Positions 31,782 through 38,599 of a DNA stretch of 48,406 bases are shown one piece after another. Below the pieces are notes generated by a model, which did no database searches, was not told the DNA's origin, and was given only the letters and a program-made list of their open reading frames with translations. Position 1 is the first letter of the stretch. Each line of letters begins with the position of its first letter. The position numbers and the translations under genes were made by a program. Origin of the DNA: an uncultured Bacilli bacterium (lineage in GTDB: Bacteria; Bacillota_I; Bacilli_A; RF39; UBA660); assembly GCA_944332435.1 (NCBI GenBank), contig CALVJW010000009.1, forward strand, positions 1 to 48,406, given 5' to 3'.

Positions 31782-32183
31782 TTATATATATTTTTCATCT
31801 ACAGTTTGATCGATTTGTTCCAATACTGTATTATCTACATCATCTTCAATTTCATCCCATGGATCTTCCTCTTCTTCCACAGAAATCTTAACTTTTCCTT
31901 CTCCAACAATTTCAACACCAAGTTCTTTTTCGATATCAAAATTGATATCACCGTTTTCTAAAATTTGAACTTTCACACAGTTTGGTTGTTTTAATGTACG
32001 TACAATGACATCCGTTTCCCCTGATACATTTTCTTTTGTTCTTACATTGAATACATCATTGTAATCAATTTTTTTACTAACAACCGTTGTCTTTGAGTCA
32101 TTATCATAAGAATACCAAATATTAATATCAAAAGATCCATCTACACCAATTTTTTCTCCCGTCTTATATCCTTTAAATTGATG
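31782..32183 (-). CDS. cotE: cotE, 3' segment (split gene)
   Basis: Encodes the C-terminal three quarters of the outer spore-coat morphogenetic protein CotE. Diagnostic stretches are [40 protein letters not shown] and the acidic tail [16 protein letters not shown], all matching Bacillus CotE in order. The first 43 residues are missing; they lie 6.3 kb away at 38440-38570. An ATG at 32189 opens the frame but has no ribosome site and lies in the element's end. Recombination at the CATCA core (32183-32179) joins codon 43 (His) to Gln-Phe-Lys in frame and gives a 175-residue CotE (181 in Bacillus). Confidence 0.93.
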
Positions 32184-32205
32184 TGTCATGGTTTTTGGTG
32201 ATAAC
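32179..32205. repeat. Left attachment site: TGATG core plus inverted-repeat arm
   Basis: The core TGATG at 32179-32183 is identical to that at 38440-38444. The element-side arm TTGGTGATAAC (32195-32205) is the inverse of GTTATCACCAA at 38421-38431. The arms are 11 and 8 bases from their cores, so the closed circle would have an attP-like dyad of 11-bp arms 24 bases apart, centred on the CA of CATCA. Confidence 0.8.
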
Positions 32206-32218
32206 TTTTTGCATTTTT

Positions 32219-33880
32219 TTAAACAACTTGATTCAGTTGTTTTAATTTGAAATATAAATCTACTGTTTTGTCTTGATGAATTTCTATTTTGTCAACAATT
32301 TTTAATATTAACTCTTTAGGTGGCTTTTTTCTAGATTTCAAATATTTTTTTACTATAGTTTGAGTTTCTAATAATTGATCAATAGAATTATTCTTTTTAT
32401 ACTCTTCTACACTTACTTTTAATTCGTTAGTTTCTTTTTGTTTTGATTTTTTTTGTTTCTCAAATTTGTCTGTTAATTTCTTATATGTGTCAGGAGTGAT
32501 AATGTCGTCCAATCTATCCATATATAATTTCTCAATTTTTAAATCAATACTTTTTATATCAATTTCTAATCTACCTATCTTTTTTTCAAGTTCTTCAGAG
32601 TATGTATTTAAAGTTTTTTTCCGATTACTTACAATATCATCATAACCTATTAAGTCAATATACTTATTACAAACAGATGTAATAATTGATAGTAATTGTT
32701 CTTCTAAATTATTATAATTCATTGTATGAGGAGTACATTTATTATAAGCACTATTTTTTCTATAATAGTTACAATAAGTATATACATATTGTTTTTCTTT
32801 AGGTCGATTATCTCTTTTAGGATTGCCAACACCTATTTTATGGCCACATTCATGACAAAACATAATGCCACCAAAAATTCTTTCATATGGTTTTGTAGGT
32901 TGCCTGTAATTTGCATCTAATAAATTTTGTACTCTATAAAATGTATCTTTATCAATGATTGGTTCATGCGTTCCTTCTACTATTACCCAATCCTCTTTTG
33001 ATGTTTTTACAATTTTTTTCTCACGAAAACTTTTTTTTACATGAACATTTTGTACCATATCACCAATATACATTCTATTCCTTAAAATACTCCTTACAGT
33101 ATGATAATTCCAGTCATAAGGATGTTTTGCTTTAACACCCCTTCTCGTTTGCTTATAAACTTCAGGAATTGGTATTTTTTCGTTTGTCAAAATTTTCATA
33201 ACACCACTTTGCGAATGTAATTTTAAATAAAGTTCAAATATTCTTTTTACATTTTTTGCTGCTTCTTCGTCTATTATCAATTTATGCTTATCATTTGGAT
33301 CTTTTATATACCCATATACAGGCTTGCCACCCATATATTCTCCTGCTTGTTGTTTAATTCTATATACTCTTTTAATATTTTTAGATAAATCTCTAGAATA
33401 TTTTTCGTTAATAAAATTATTAAGTGCAGCATACTCATTATTTGAATTTTCATTATTAAAAGTATCAATCTGTTCTTGAATAGCAATATATCTAATATTG
33501 TTTTCGGGAAAATAATAATCTAAAAAATAACTACATTCAAAATTACTTCTTCCAAGTCTTGATAGATTTTTAGTAATAACAACTTTAATTTTTCCAGATT
33601 CCATATCTTCTTGCAATTTATTCCAACCCGGTCTGTCAAAATTAGTTCCACTAACTCCATCATCGATAAACTCTTTACATTTTTCGCCTACATTTCCATT
33701 GCGATCAATAAATTCGTTCATCAATCTTCTTTGATTGGAAACACTTTCACTTTCATCGATTGGTTTATCTAGTTCATCTTGTTTTACTTCATCAGCCAAT
33801 GATAGTCTAATATATTTCGCTATTTCTTCTGGTTTATATGCTTTTAATAATAAATTAACAATACCACAATCATAATTCAT
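32219..33880 (-). CDS. Large serine recombinase (excisionase of the cotE element)
   Basis: A 553-residue large serine recombinase. The resolvase domain (about 20-170) has the catalytic Ser27 in KYIRLSLAD, DGVSGTNFDRPGWNKLQEDM and the Arg motif TKNLSRLGRSNFE. The recombinase domain (about 190-300) has GGKPVYGYIKD and RSILRNRMYIGDMV. A zinc ribbon has Cys342/345 (FCHECG) and Cys370/382. A coiled coil spans about 430-510. The gene reads towards the cotE junction and stops 35 bp from the core, as integrase genes commonly flank their att site. The start at 33880 follows GGAGGAGATAAC. No frameshift or missing catalytic residue is seen. Confidence 0.95.
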   Translation of the reverse strand: MNYDCGIVNLLLKAYKPEEIAKYIRLSLADEVKQDELDKPIDESESVSNQRRLMNEFIDRNGNVGEKCKEFIDDGVSGTNFDRPGWNKLQEDMESGKIKVVITKNLSRLGRSNFECSYFLDYYFPENNIRYIAIQEQIDTFNNENSNNEYAALNNFINEKYSRDLSKNIKRVYRIKQQAGEYMGGKPVYGYIKDPNDKHKLIIDEEAAKNVKRIFELYLKLHSQSGVMKILTNEKIPIPEVYKQTRRGVKAKHPYDWNYHTVRSILRNRMYIGDMVQNVHVKKSFREKKIVKTSKEDWVIVEGTHEPIIDKDTFYRVQNLLDANYRQPTKPYERIFGGIMFCHECGHKIGVGNPKRDNRPKEKQYVYTYCNYYRKNSAYNKCTPHTMNYNNLEEQLLSIITSVCNKYIDLIGYDDIVSNRKKTLNTYSEELEKKIGRLEIDIKSIDLKIEKLYMDRLDDIITPDTYKKLTDKFEKQKKSKQKETNELKVSVEEYKKNNSIDQLLETQTIVKKYLKSRKKPPKELILKIVDKIEIHQDKTVDLYFKLKQLNQVV

Positions 33881-33979
33881 GTTATCTCCTCCAATCGAAG
33901 GATTCAAATTGCTAAATTATATGCCCAACCATGTAAAACAATTATAGTATAAATTTAGTCAAAAAGAATCCATGTTAAG

Positions 33980-34099
33980 CTACTTAATATACTTTTTTAT
34001 ATAATCATTAAAAAAATCTTTAAAATCCTGTTCCAAAATTTCTAATATAGTATTGCCATCGTTTTTATAAAATACATTTATGTTTAAAGTTTTATTCAT
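33980..34099 (-). CDS. Small protein upstream of the recombinase (candidate directionality factor)
   Basis: A 39-residue frame, MNKTLNINVFYKNDGNTILE ... and ending FFNDYIKKYIK, with an excellent site, AGAGGTGATTG, at correct spacing. It is on the same strand about 100 bases upstream of the recombinase and probably shares its transcript. It has a short strand and a charged C-terminal helix. No family is recognised. Serine-recombinase elements that excise need a small directionality factor (SprB for SPbeta, CD1234 for the C. difficile skin), and this is the best candidate by position; the role is inferred. Confidence 0.6.
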   Translation of the reverse strand: MNKTLNINVFYKNDGNTILEILEQDFKDFFNDYIKKYIK

Positions 34100-34126
34100 A
34101 CAATCACCTCTTTCATATTCATTTTA

Positions 34127-34154
34127 AATATATGTTTTTTAAAGCAAAATATTT
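34127..34154 (-). promoter_or_regulatory. Candidate sigma-E-like promoter of the recombinase operon
   Basis: On the minus strand AAATATT, 13 bases, CATATATT, 28 bases before the start of the 39-aa gene. Compared with the Bacillus sigma-E pattern (KMATATT, 14-15, CATACAMT) it keeps 6 of 7 and 6 of 8 positions with a spacer one base short. AT-rich DNA makes chance matches common. Confidence 0.35.
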
Positions 34155-34207
34155 TTAATAAAATAATAAAAAAAACTATTTTTGTAGTTCTTTAATTCAT
34201 TAAATAT

Positions 34208-34443
34208 TTAGGATAACTTATTTTTTATCATATTTGCAATTTCAAATCCATTGAATTCTGAATGCAATAATATTGATAGTATATTATTTTTAATATAAGT
34301 TCTATTATCATATCTAATTAATATTTCTGCAATAACATCAAGGTTTTCATTAAATGATAATTTTTCAAAATGCGAAATAACATCTACTTGATTTTTAGAA
34401 TAATAAAATCCAATTATATTACCAAAAGAAGAATCTAATAGTA
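34208..34443 (-). pseudogene. Gene remnant inside the element
   Basis: A minus-strand frame without a start codon encodes about 78 residues ending in a TAA at 34210-34208 (LLLDSSFGNIIGFYYSKNQV ... HSEFNGFEIANMIKNKLS). It looks like the C-terminal end of a helical protein whose upstream part has been replaced by the LysR fragment on the opposite strand. The family is not recognised. This and the next remnant fill the stretch between the 39-aa gene and the 34824 gene. Confidence 0.4.
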
Positions 34444-34706
34444 GAAAATTACTAAATTATATTGCTCTTAATAATAATGTTAAACTTATTCCTAAAATGA
34501 AAATTGTAAGTCAAGAATTAATAACAAAATTTATTGGACTAGGCATTGGGTTTACTATGATAGATTTAGTAAAAAGGAATTATAATAATTTAGAAGAACT
34601 AAAAATAAATAAAAAAATACCAAATATAAATGTATATTTGGCTTCAAATAAATCTATTTTACCTACTTTCGCAAGTAAAACATTTATTAATTTAATAACC
34701 TACTAA
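34437..34706 (+). pseudogene. LysR-type regulator, C-terminal fragment
   Basis: About 90 residues matching the end of the LysR effector-binding domain: LLNYIALNNNVKLIPKM, then GLGIGFTMIDLVKRNYNN and NINVYLASNKSILPTFASK, stopping at 34706. The DNA-binding domain and most of the sensor domain are missing and no start with a ribosome site is present. The fragment is a leftover of an earlier rearrangement in the element. Confidence 0.6.
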
Positions 34707-34823
34707 GAATATTTCTTTATTATTATTTTCTTAAAAAGTATTGTCATTTAATTACTCTTAATATATAATAACTATCACATATAAAAGTTACTTTACGTGC
34801 ATTAAAATATTAGGGAGGTTTTT

Positions 34824-35963
34824 ATGGAAACAACAAACAAAAATGATTTTATTAATATTTATGTTTTAAAAACATTAAATGAAATCAAAGATATGGTTAA
34901 AAGTAATATTAAATTAGAAAGCGAAAAAGAGAAAGAAATAGATAAAAAAATGATTATTGTATTAAATGATTTAATTAATGCTAATTTTAAAAATCTTCAA
35001 AAAGACCCAAAAGGGAATCTAATTTATACACTTCTTCCCATTGTGGATGAGAAAGAAAATAAAAAAATTAGATTATCTTTAGCATTATATTATACAGCAT
35101 TATATTATGACAACGTAGATTTATTACATGATTTATTAAAAGAAAATATTAGATTTGAAGAAAGTCGGCATATTAATCTTCAGTATCTAGATAAATCTAT
35201 ATCATCAAGATTTGAAAGAAAAAAATATATTGAAACGATTAAAACTTGTGGATATATTTTTAGAAACTTTGCCAAAAGTATTGAAAATTTAACTGAAAAA
35301 GAAAGAGAACAATACATTCAAAAATTTGTAAAATTAATTAACTTAAAATATGATTCAATCTGTAATATTATAAACAAGAAACAATGGTATGAAAGTTTTA
35401 AATTAGAACATTTATTTGAAAAAGAAAATTTAGATACATTTACAGACGAAACATATATACAAGCAACTGATGAACAATTAAATTTAATTAATTGTAGTTA
35501 TACAGAAAATTGTTCAAAAGAGGTTCGTGACAGATTAAATAATTTGATGCAAACAAAAGGCTTTTCTAATAATCTATCTAATTTTGAGTTAATGATGACA
35601 TTATATACAGATGAAGAACTACAATCATTAAATCATCATATAAGTTGGGCTATAAGCAACTTTTCAGAAACTGAAGAAAGTTTAAACAAAATAATTGATT
35701 TTATTAAAAGAAGACCTGATTTAGCTACTAGCATAATTACAATATCAAAAGAAATGTTTATGAAATTTGATAATTTTACTTTAATAGAATTATGTGATAA
35801 ATATGTTTATCCTCATAATATAGAAAAAGAATACTTAAACACTATAGTTAAATTTTTAAAATTAAAAATAGCATTAAAAAAAGTATTAGGTGCTTATGAT
35901 CCTAAAAATACTCAAGAACAAAATGGTAGTTTGAAAAAAAAATTAACACAACATAAAAAATAA
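34824..35963 (+). CDS. Unknown 379-aa helical protein, intact cargo of the element
   Basis: An uncharacterised cytosolic protein with a strong site, TAGGGAGGTTTTT. It is predicted almost wholly helical. The first 60 residues are charged (KLESEKEKEIDKKMIIVLND). Residues 75-125 resemble a helical repeat (KIRLSLALYYTALYYDNVDL LHDLL). The rest (RFERKKYIETIKTCGYIFRN, ISWAISNFSETEESLNKII) alternates amphipathic helices, and the tail is basic. No catalytic motif, signal peptide or membrane segment is visible. It is the longest intact cargo gene, opposite in direction to the recombinase, with its own terminator. Function cannot be assigned. Confidence 0.75.
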   Translation: METTNKNDFINIYVLKTLNEIKDMVKSNIKLESEKEKEIDKKMIIVLNDLINANFKNLQKDPKGNLIYTLLPIVDEKENKKIRLSLALYYTALYYDNVDLLHDLLKENIRFEESRHINLQYLDKSISSRFERKKYIETIKTCGYIFRNFAKSIENLTEKEREQYIQKFVKLINLKYDSICNIINKKQWYESFKLEHLFEKENLDTFTDETYIQATDEQLNLINCSYTENCSKEVRDRLNNLMQTKGFSNNLSNFELMMTLYTDEELQSLNHHISWAISNFSETEESLNKIIDFIKRRPDLATSIITISKEMFMKFDNFTLIELCDKYVYPHNIEKEYLNTIVKFLKLKIALKKVLGAYDPKNTQEQNGSLKKKLTQHKK

Positions 35964-35988
35964 TATATAACATATTAAATAGTATTAT

Positions 35989-36019
35989 AAAAGTAGACCT
36001 GTATAAAAGTCTACTTTTT
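35989..36019 (+). terminator. Terminator after the 379-aa gene
   Basis: AAAAGTAGAC / GTCTACTTTT, 10-bp perfect stem, followed by TTC after five T. Confidence 0.8.
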
Positions 36020-36169
36020 CTAATTTAGTATATATTTTTATCTATAAAACAATACTTCATTAAGTTAAAAATCTATAATAATTATTATCTTCCTGTCCTA
36101 GAAGTTCCAACATTAGGTACTCCTAAATTTTGTCTTTTTATTCATAATTATTAAACACTTCAATTTGTT

Positions 36170-37204
36170 TCACATTTTTTTATTTGGTACATTTTCTTCA
36201 TTAACTAATTTATTAACAGATAGTTTTATTTTTCTAACTAATAAAATTGGATTAGAAATCCTAATAAATAATTTTTCAAAATTCTCCATTATTACTTTAG
36301 AAGAAGATGTTAAGTGATCTAAGTTAACGGTTTCATGTGAGTGCTTTGGAACTTTTCTACCATACGATTCGATTGTTATTTCACCAAAACACTTATTTAC
36401 TATGTTAGTATTAGTTAAATTTTCTATATCGCATTCAACTGTCATTACTAATTGTTCGGTAAGTAATTTTTTATTTACCAAATCTAAAGCAAGATTGTCT
36501 GCCATTTTCTTCACAATTAATTTTGCTTTTTTATTATCATAAGGACAATGTAAAACTTGTCCTGAACTTAAACTTGTTGCTAAAGAGTTATAACTCTTTG
36601 CAATAGAGATTGTACAAGGCTCCCATCCCCAAGAATGATTTATCAAAAGCATTTACTCCAAATTCATTTGGTTTACTTTTTTTAGCGACTATATCCATTG
36701 CTACTTTAACCAAAAACATATTAGTTCCTATTCCTGCAGTAGCAGTAATACCAGTTGTTTTATAAACATCTTGAATGAATTTCGTAACTAATTGACTTGG
36801 AGAACATTTGTAAAGAGAACTATAATTTGTTATGTCAATAAAAACTTCATCTATTGAATATACGAGTATATCTTCTGGAGCAATATATTTTACGTAATAT
36901 GCCATTCGTGGTGGTGCAATTATTAGATCTAATTCTAAATTTTTATTATTCTTTAATTCATTATCCAAATATAATTTACCACCAAATTTTTTATAATCAT
37001 TTAATTTTTTTTATTTTTTGTTTTACTTCAAATAATCTTGCTCTTCCACCAATACCATATTGGTTTAAGGATAGACTAACTGCCAAGCAAACCGTCTTTT
37101 CAGTACTTGATTCATCGGCAACAACTAAGTTAGTATTCAAAGGATCTAATTTTCTTTCAACACATTCTACTGAGGTATAAAAGTTTTTTTAAATCAATAC
37201 ACAT
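36170..37204 (-). pseudogene. Y-family DNA polymerase (UvrX/UmuC-like), multiply frameshifted
   Basis: A decayed lesion-bypass polymerase. From the ATG at 37204 it reads MCIDLKK, shifts frame at a run of seven A, continues FYTSVECVERKLDPLNTNLV and GRARLFEVKQKIKK, then meets a stop. A third frame gives LIIAPPRMAYYVKYIAPEDI and the catalytic YSIDEVFIDITNY (36588-36968). After another shift near 36640 it continues SSGQVLHCPYDNKKAKLIVK to a stop at 36170. Nearly the full length of the gene is recognisable, so it is a recent wreck with at least three breaks. Such genes are common prophage and plasmid cargo. Confidence 0.88.
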
Positions 37205-37212
37205 ATATATTC

Positions 37213-37249
37213 TTTTCACAAATATCACCATATACAATTATGGTGAAAA
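37213..37249. promoter_or_regulatory. Nested inverted repeats upstream of the polymerase remnant
   Basis: TTTTCAC (37213-37219) pairs with GTGAAAA (37243-37249), and inside it TCACCATA (37225-37232) pairs with TATGGTGA (37239-37246). The dyad lies between the XRE regulator gene and the polymerase remnant and may be an operator for the regulator; this is a guess from position. Confidence 0.4.
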
Positions 37250-37331
37250 CGTTTGTTTTCTGAAATAATTTCTTTCTTTTTTTCATAAATTTACATAAAT
37301 TTTCAATTTTTTGTTAAAAAAAGAAAATAAT

Positions 37332-37997
37332 TTATTTTTTATTTTCTTTTTTCAATTTTTCATTGACTGATAATTGAGCAAAAATAGCACAAAATAAACT
37401 AGGAATTATTGCATATCCTGCGTTAACTTGTCCTTTATTTGATAAAACATATCCTGCACCTACAAATGTTAATATCATAAAGACAAATGTTAATATCCTA
37501 TATATTTTTTCTTTTTTCATAACTTTTTCCTCTATATTCATTTTTGTAATAGCTTTTCTTAATTTTATTCTCAGCAACAATCCATATCCCCATATAAAAC
37601 AACCTATTCCAATCACTAATATTTTTTGGATAGTTGTAGTTGCCAATAAAGAAGTTAATGTCATTGTTATAACAATTCCTGCAAATATTAAAAGTTCAGT
37701 TAATATTTGCAGATTCTCCAATTGATCTCTTGTTATCAAAATTGATAAAATATTTTTATCAGATACTTTTTTTTGTTCGTCAAAATTTAATCGTTTTCCT
37801 TCTAAAAGTTCATTAATTGTTATACCTAATATATTACATAGTTCGGGAATATTAGAAGTATCTGGTAAGTTTAAACCTCTTTCCCATTTTGAAACAGCAT
37901 TAACACTTACATTCATTTTCTCTGCTAATTGCTCTTGCGTTAATTTATTTTCTTTACGACAATCTGTAATAAAATTTCCTATTTTTATTTTATCCAT
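37332..37997 (-). CDS. XRE-family regulator with membrane domain
   Basis: A 221-residue protein. An N-terminal helix-turn-helix of the Cro/CI type spans residues 1-68 (KENKLTQEQLAEKMNVSVNA VSKWERGLNLPD). A linker follows, then about four hydrophobic segments in 90-215 (TELLIFAGIVITMTLTSLLA, ILVIGIGCFIWGYGLLL, ILTFVFMILTFVGAGYVL). Such HTH-membrane proteins are frequent in Firmicutes and may sense a membrane signal. It is intact and has the site AAGGAGGAAAG. Within the element it is the only intact regulator, so it may control the recombinase or the cargo. Confidence 0.85.
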   Translation of the reverse strand: MDKIKIGNFITDCRKENKLTQEQLAEKMNVSVNAVSKWERGLNLPDTSNIPELCNILGITINELLEGKRLNFDEQKKVSDKNILSILITRDQLENLQILTELLIFAGIVITMTLTSLLATTTIQKILVIGIGCFIWGYGLLLRIKLRKAITKMNIEEKVMKKEKIYRILTFVFMILTFVGAGYVLSNKGQVNAGYAIIPSLFCAIFAQLSVNEKLKKENKK

Positions 37998-38059
37998 AAC
38001 TTTCCTCCTTATATATTAAGACTATCAAAATTTATACAAAATCTCCACATACCATAAGT

Positions 38060-38374
38060 TTAATTTATATTTAACATTCTAAAATTTATTCTATCTTCAG
38101 TTCCATAGATAGTCCTTCGTTGAAAAGTTATTTCATTACTTTCATTTAAAATTGGCATTTGAACATGACCACCATAGAGATATATCATGTTCATTTCAAA
38201 AGCATAAACCTTATAACCTCTTTTAAGAAAAGGAATGGTATAAATATCATCTAAACATCCTACATCACAAATTTCTAGATTTTCTCCATCATTTTCTTTA
38301 ATATACTTTAACAATGTATAAAAAGTTGTTCCTACAACTCCAAAGGAACTGACTTTCATTGTTATTGTTTCCAT
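38060..38374 (-). pseudogene. SAM-dependent methyltransferase, N-terminal fragment
   Basis: About 104 residues with a methyltransferase motif I-like stretch (NLEICDVGCLDDIYTIPFLK) and the strand GYKVYAFEMN, ending at a stop at 38060. Only the first third of a class I or FkbM-like methyltransferase is left. There is no good ribosome site before the ATG at 38374. A longer frame continues upstream into the cotE 5' segment out of register, which is a coincidence of the insertion. Confidence 0.5.
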
Positions 38375-38420
38375 ATAAAAATCAGAATTCAAACCCTCGG
38401 TATTTGCTAAGTTTAGAATG

Positions 38421-38444
38421 GTTATCACCAACGACCAAGTGATG
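38421..38444. repeat. Right attachment site: TGATG core plus inverted-repeat arm
   Basis: The core TGATG at 38440-38444 and the arm GTTATCACCAA at 38421-38431, the mirror of the arm at 32195-32205. Left of the core is element DNA and right of it is cotE codons 1-43. Confidence 0.8.
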
Positions 38445-38570
38445 ATTAATGACCCAACACCCAAGTACTGTAGTTGGCTTATCTGTTGGTGTTAAAGTAT
38501 AATTATTTTTAAAATACTTCTTTCCTTTCCCGATGACTGTCTTTGTTACGATTTCTTTATATATAGCCAT
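38440..38570 (-). CDS. cotE: cotE, 5' segment (split gene)
   Basis: Encodes CotE residues 1-43: MAIYKEIVTKTVIGKGKKYF ... TTVLGCWVINH, the N-terminal region that matches Bacillus CotE (YREIITKAVVAKGRKF and LGGWIINH). In the present arrangement the frame runs on into the element for 19 junk residues to a stop at 38382. The start has the site GAGGGGTGAAG. It is joined in frame to the 3' segment by recombination at CATCA. CotE directs assembly of the outer spore coat, so the unexcised genome should be unable to build a normal outer coat unless the element leaves. Confidence 0.92.
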
Positions 38571-38587
38571 ATCTTCACCCCTCACTT

Positions 38588-38596
38588 TAATGTATG
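38588..38596 (-). promoter_or_regulatory. Sigma-E type -10 box of cotE
   Basis: CATACATTA on the minus strand, 17 bases before the cotE ATG, fits the sigma-E -10 consensus (CATACAnT) and the sigma-K pattern. Bacillus cotE is transcribed by both factors. The -35 region is a T-run and not convincing. Confidence 0.55.
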
Positions 38597-38599
38597 CGA

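Follow-up and report, generated by a model that had tools for sequence, protein, structure and literature searches.

How could a spore gene that is interrupted by a DNA element be made whole in time, and what would steer the element out? The window analysed here (the whole stretch of 48,406 nucleotides, taken from a bin of 943 kb, estimated to be 66% complete, of an uncultured gut bacterium) raises this question for cotE, which lies in two parts on either side of a 6.26-kb element. Inside the element a large serine recombinase is encoded, and a gene of only 39 codons precedes it. In what follows we argue that these two genes probably form the machinery by which cotE is repaired during sporulation.

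An element inside cotE

The element and its surroundings are set out in Table 1. The cotE sequence begins with the ATG at 38570 and stops at a CAT core (38442-38444); it resumes at a second CAT core (32181-32183). In the junctions read, the same CAT codon closes the 5' side and opens the 3' side, with GAC or ACA preceding it on the element side; the element ends adjoining the core bear, in the window, the arms GGTGATAAC and GTTATCACC. Joining the window flanks yields a CotE of 175 aa. Aligned with the intact CotE of a genome of the same genus (L216), and likewise with those of L034, L046 and L036, it shows no gap at the junction. Across the elements cotE is split at one codon. The locus has features of a sporulation gene-intervening element: a spore gene split at a short common core, a reading frame that excision would restore, and a large serine recombinase encoded within.

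Table 1. Positions of the cotE parts, the element and its module in the window
Feature	Position	Strand	Remarks
Gene for 39-aa protein, candidate recombination directionality factor	33980..34099	-	start ATG
Ribosome site GAGGTGAT ahead of the 39-aa gene	34103..34110	-	read directly; 3 bases before ATG
Large serine recombinase	32219..33880	-	553 aa from ATG 33880; Pfam Resolvase, Recombinase, Zn_ribbon_recom
Predicted sigma-E-class promoter of the 39-aa gene	34125..34154	-	-35 AAATATTT (34147-34154), -10 CATATATT (34127-34134)
cotE -10 element GCATACATTA	38588..38597	-	sigma-K-like class in the host's bacterial family
Putative excisable element	32181..38441	.	6261 bp between two CAT cores
5' cotE part, open frame	38382..38585	-	CotE profile positions 2-43
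3' cotE part, open frame	31782..32189	-	CotE profile positions 40-172

CotE was found in 335 of the 386 host-family genomes examined. By our reading of the listings, ten of the 386 combine a split cotE with such a recombinase (G000, G021, G053, G125, G173, G217, G225, G363, G383 and G402), and there are other fragmentary cases besides. An intact cotE contig in G363 was rejected as a sign of excision: with no more than 90-91% identity to the split copy, it represents another strain or contamination. In the 28 host genomes looked at, SpoIVA and SigK/SigE-type sigma factors were always present, and SpoIIID-like proteins occurred in 22, all below the curated cut-off. Literature searches on interruptions of cotE or spoIVA, with few subscription journals covered, listed elements in sigK, spsM, gerE and yabG; none of the listed titles and abstract openings describes one in cotE or spoIVA.

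Besides the recombinase and its small neighbor, the element in the window contains a gene for a DinB/UmuC-like polymerase (36170-36968, minus strand), which lies in two frames and is apparently broken, and a 379-aa cargo protein (34824-35963) of no Pfam family.

The small gene and the recombinase

The original prediction placed a short frame with an excellent ribosome site ahead of the recombinase, and both were located. The frame is a real gene under purifying selection and no chance ORF. Its dN/dS is 0.12 against L062 and 0.05 against L063. Eight pairs were computed, and six of them fall within 0.05-0.12; the weaker pairs are L064/L067 (0.40) and L069/L070 (0.54). Relatives of the recombinase were found at 18 loci, 12 of them cotE loci, to which the window adds a thirteenth. 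Wherever a cotE locus has sequence ahead of the recombinase, which is true of 12 (L078 is cut), the small gene is its immediate neighbor there, and it is so in a clostridial lineage as well. The six clostridial loci (L074:9681-13569, L072, L073, L075, L076, L079) count as one because they are 92-98% identical over their shared parts; they interrupt valS, the gene of valyl-tRNA synthetase, and no spore gene.

All eight complete elements (3.7-15.4 kb) contain the recombinase and seven of them the small gene by BLAST; the one that BLAST missed, in L077, has a divergent small gene of 35 aa. Apart from frames overlapping the recombinase, no other gene is common to more than two of the eight. Every element with this recombinase has kept the small protein, and it is the only widely shared candidate in them, so that the proposal of it as the best candidate for the directionality factor stands. 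This role, as for the 42-aa GirX, would be the best explanation of the gene.

GirX comes from gin, a likewise non-phage element that splits the spore gene gerE in Bacillus cereus ATCC10987 and encodes the recombinase GirC together with this tiny directionality factor, both expressed in sporulation (PMC5595907; this and the other papers cited here were used in excerpt). It is the closest precedent: GirX, too, was first singled out by its conservation, and complementation as well as recombination in vitro then served to test it (PMC5595907). Target gene and host differ from those described here, where both genes form one module behind one promoter of predicted sigma-E class.

No meaningful match to the small protein turned up in Pfam, NCBIfam, PHROGs or PDB sequences and none in phages, and the literature listed on small directionality factors upstream of recombinases does not name this protein family. 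The predicted structure has a helix at residues 18-37 (pLDDT about 90) and an N-terminal part of low confidence; overall, the mean is 78 and the pTM 0.45. The Pfam profile of TnpW (PF14202) did not match the small protein at E <= 1 (one of its copies was scanned alone, and nine proteins together at E <= 0.01), and homology to TnpW was rejected at an hhalign profile comparison probability of 2%. One enterococcal 69-aa protein gave E 0.00083 and a probability of 24%, which is a lead only. Outside the host's bacterial family, TnpW or DUF6870 genes lie directly ahead of some large serine recombinases (L206:1171-1374, L207:1124-1360), which suggests that a small upstream partner is common; upstream of recombinases in 22 genomes, the TnpW profile gave no match over the cut-off and one weak match inside a longer frame.

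Might the recombinase work without a partner? In that case the small protein would have a general accessory role, such as a leader that couples expression, a stabiliser or a regulator, and the sigma-E promoter alone would set the timing. The nearest characterised recombinases are the closest counter-example: TndX of Tn5397 (35% identity) and TnpX of Tn4451, the latter the best match by sequence to the recombinase among solved structures; both are reported to perform the two reactions alone and to need no directionality factor, as far as the excerpt of PMC5704250 goes. Small frames also precede most of the remaining large serine recombinases examined, so the role of the small protein may be a general one. 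Yet the protein is strongly conserved and present in every cotE element, and the characterised recombinases of SPbeta, of the C. difficile skin element and of gin do need a small partner according to the excerpts used. Hence we regard a partner-free recombinase as rather unlikely, and the directionality factor as the better explanation.

The same conservation bears on the question whether the element has decayed and stays put, cotE being simply broken in this lineage. The polymerase gene appears broken and the genome is an incomplete bin, as would fit such a loss. However, the recombinase, the small gene, its promoter, the att core and both cotE halves have stayed intact across several genera, in contrast to the variable remainder of the element, and no stop codon interrupts the recombinase frame, which makes decay highly improbable. 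(The Pfam scan of the recombinase was run from an upstream TTG; the ATG at 33880 is the best start.) No relative of the recombinase was found in viral contigs.

Between the small gene and the recombinase (33881-33979, minus strand), arms of the form GGATTC...GAATCC enclose a TATAAT-like box and recur in several loci. A short hairpin near the ribosome site of the recombinase, which it may cover, recurs by eye only. A conserved RNA structure, or one formed by this inverted repeat, was rejected, as no fold was common to the seven sequences compared (z-scores from 0.35 to -3.77).

Promoter classes and the predicted timing of excision

Upstream of the small gene, AAATATT (34148-34154) and CATATATT were found on the minus strand at the predicted spacing of 13 bases. 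Their likeness to a sigma-E promoter, which had also been claimed, holds by one measure and not by another. With the bare B. subtilis consensus the site matches 12 of the 15 constrained letters, and the best eight of the 46 window genes all score at least 12; as other window genes reach the same value, the raw match is not above chance and proves nothing, and it was rejected as evidence. The claim is borne out by a model trained on promoters of the host's bacterial family. As the sigma-E reference we used spoIVA, whose sigma-E control is carried over from B. subtilis (PMC517825), with 23 upstream regions of which 21 were non-redundant. The model learned -35 tcATATtT and -10 tCATAtAtTTt, and its leave-one-out scores range from 8.8 to 21.3 bits.

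With this model the small gene ranks first of the 46 window genes at 16.3 bits (next 11.2), and only three sites on both strands of the 48.4-kb window reach at least 16.2 bits. A site precedes the small gene in 10 of the 12 cotE loci; the shuffle P is 0.005 in eight of them, the smallest value possible with 200 shuffles, and 0.025 and 0.045 in the other two. The -35 and -10 elements resemble those of the spoIVA promoters of the same family, including the T at position 4 of the -35 element. This supports a conserved promoter of predicted sigma-E class ahead of the small gene. That a vegetative promoter drives the two genes and excision is independent of sporulation is the least probable reading of all: TATAAT-like boxes do occur between the two genes in several loci, but a sigma-70 promoter for the module was rejected on a scan of 33700-34500 that gave 6 matches versus 8.9 in shuffles and none in the intergenic gap, and the family-trained sigma-E model reaches a P of 0.005.

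The model found no such site ahead of the small gene in L071 and L077, nor at valS in the clostridial lineage (P 0.16). The cotE fragment of L071 ends and the small gene starts within the letters ATGA, stop and start codon overlapping, and because of this overlap the module is placed for reading from the cotE promoter. In L077 the module follows two sigma-factor-like genes that start 72 bp behind the cotE fragment. Sigma factor genes of the sigma-70 type were seen as such cargo in two cotE elements, both from the same genus: those of L077 (7969-9788) separate the cotE fragment from the module, and in L086 (153-1088) the cargo lies beside the 3' cotE part. L086 is another contig of the genome that contains L071, and with its sigma-factor gene it led us to reject L071 as a minimal two-gene element.

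The -10 element GCATACATTA that the original prediction assigned to cotE is present, but it belongs to another promoter class. A second model, trained on 39 cotE upstream regions of the host's bacterial family (37 non-redundant after filtering) and aligned at the same spacing, learned -35 GtACtTTT and -10 GCATAtATTAA. The cotE promoters of this family thus form a class of their own, in which C replaces T at the fourth -35 position, the position that separates sigma-E from sigma-K promoters (PMC517825; consensus table in PMC3416734). Each set preferred its own model when scored on the training sets (21/21 spoIVA and 37/37 cotE regions), and the cotE model ranks cotE first among the 46 window genes. 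Sigma-K control of cotE in this family is therefore likely from the promoter pattern, though not certain, because the cotE promoter of the window also permits a sigma-E reading if a shorter spacing is allowed. The cotE gene of B. subtilis carries one sigma-E and one sigma-K promoter (PMC517825).

It had been suggested that, if cotE is under the same early mother-cell factor as the module, the element would leave just as cotE is first transcribed. The sigma-K-like class of the cotE promoters does not support control by the same factor: excision should precede cotE expression, the element departing before transcription of cotE begins. An exception would be lineages such as L071, in which the module lies behind cotE's own promoter.

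Known systems differ from this arrangement, as far as the excerpts describe them. In the SPbeta prophage, which splits spsM, the 58-aa SprB times excision from a mother-cell promoter (PMC4191935). Here, too, a small protein would time excision, but SPbeta is a prophage whose sprA is expressed in growth and whose sprB lies apart with its own promoter. In the skin element in sigK of Clostridioides difficile, the directionality factor CD1234 is under sigma-E and SpoIIID (PMC5025042); unlike in the window, the recombinase CD1231 has a vegetative promoter and no operon with CD1234. The yin element splits the spore gene yabG of Clostridium botulinum and encodes a recombinase and a predicted small directionality factor (PMC10747680). 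Its predicted promoter is of the sigma-K type and matches that of yabG, whereas here the module appears sigma-E-class and the target gene sigma-K-like.

Our preferred interpretation, to which we give a probability of roughly 0.6, is that the small gene and the recombinase are one excision module, timed by sigma-E, in which the small protein acts as directionality factor and the repair of cotE precedes the need for it. Sigma-E would switch on the operon of the two genes in the mother cell, and the small protein would steer the recombinase to attL x attR. Recombination at the shared CAT core would then remove the element as a circle and bring cotE back in frame, so that the gene would be whole before its own later sigma-K-like promoter fires. 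The 39-aa protein thus probably helps to cut out the element and to repair cotE during sporulation. One point against this explanation is that co-transcription with its directionality factor would bias an integrase to excision whenever it is expressed.

A wider family and split spoIVA

Is the small protein peculiar to cotE? Among 27 other large serine recombinase loci (excluding the window and two cotE loci; some are close relatives and were not thinned), a profile built from just the 13 small proteins picked up the upstream frame in only six (E <= 0.01). After iteration it recovered the frame immediately ahead of the recombinase in 21 (round 2) and 23 (round 3) of the 27 at the same threshold, with no further hit among the 2206 small frames of these loci; later rounds admit one off-target. 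Judged by these profiles, the small protein is a member of an unnamed family whose genes lie ahead of the majority of the other large serine recombinases here. In 16 of the 27 loci, several close relatives included, the spoIVA model scores at least 10.5 bits upstream of the small gene; about 0.026 per region would be expected from the window.

Two modules of this kind split spoIVA itself, an essential spore gene in B. subtilis. In L199 (G053:C31) and L200 (G047:C7) the small gene is in place, and the promoter sites score 13.3 and 15.5 bits, respectively. In L020 (G022) the 3' part of spoIVA lies behind a recombinase. The small genes of the spoIVA modules are 60-73 aa long and stand with the large serine recombinase ahead of the 3' part, possibly also in L201/L202 (G003). 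In G053 both cotE and spoIVA are split. SpoIVA was found in 212 of 243 genomes, about 20 of which have it in at least two pieces with a reduced best score, as read from the listing and possibly including contig breaks. Other large serine recombinases end beside LysM or LysM-amidase genes (L013:3163-4323, L027, L028); in L013 the amidase domain starts at profile position 81, as if split.

A broader reading, which we offer tentatively, is that the small gene belongs to a wide family of tiny directionality factors encoded immediately ahead of large serine recombinases and that, in this bacterial family of spore formers with small genomes, sigma-E-driven modules have repeatedly split cotE, spoIVA, perhaps LysM-amidase and other genes. 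If this is true, several genes per genome would be pieced together anew in every mother cell.

If the interpretation given above for the window is true, cotE and spoIVA join the genes that are rebuilt by DNA excision during sporulation. The 39-aa protein and the recombinase would represent a compact excision module in one operon. They would also provide a sequence signature by which to search for directionality factors; so far these have been found one by one because the known cases share no similarity. Finally, the module with its own sigma-E promoter and that of L071, read from the promoter of the gene it repairs, would offer a natural contrast in timing.
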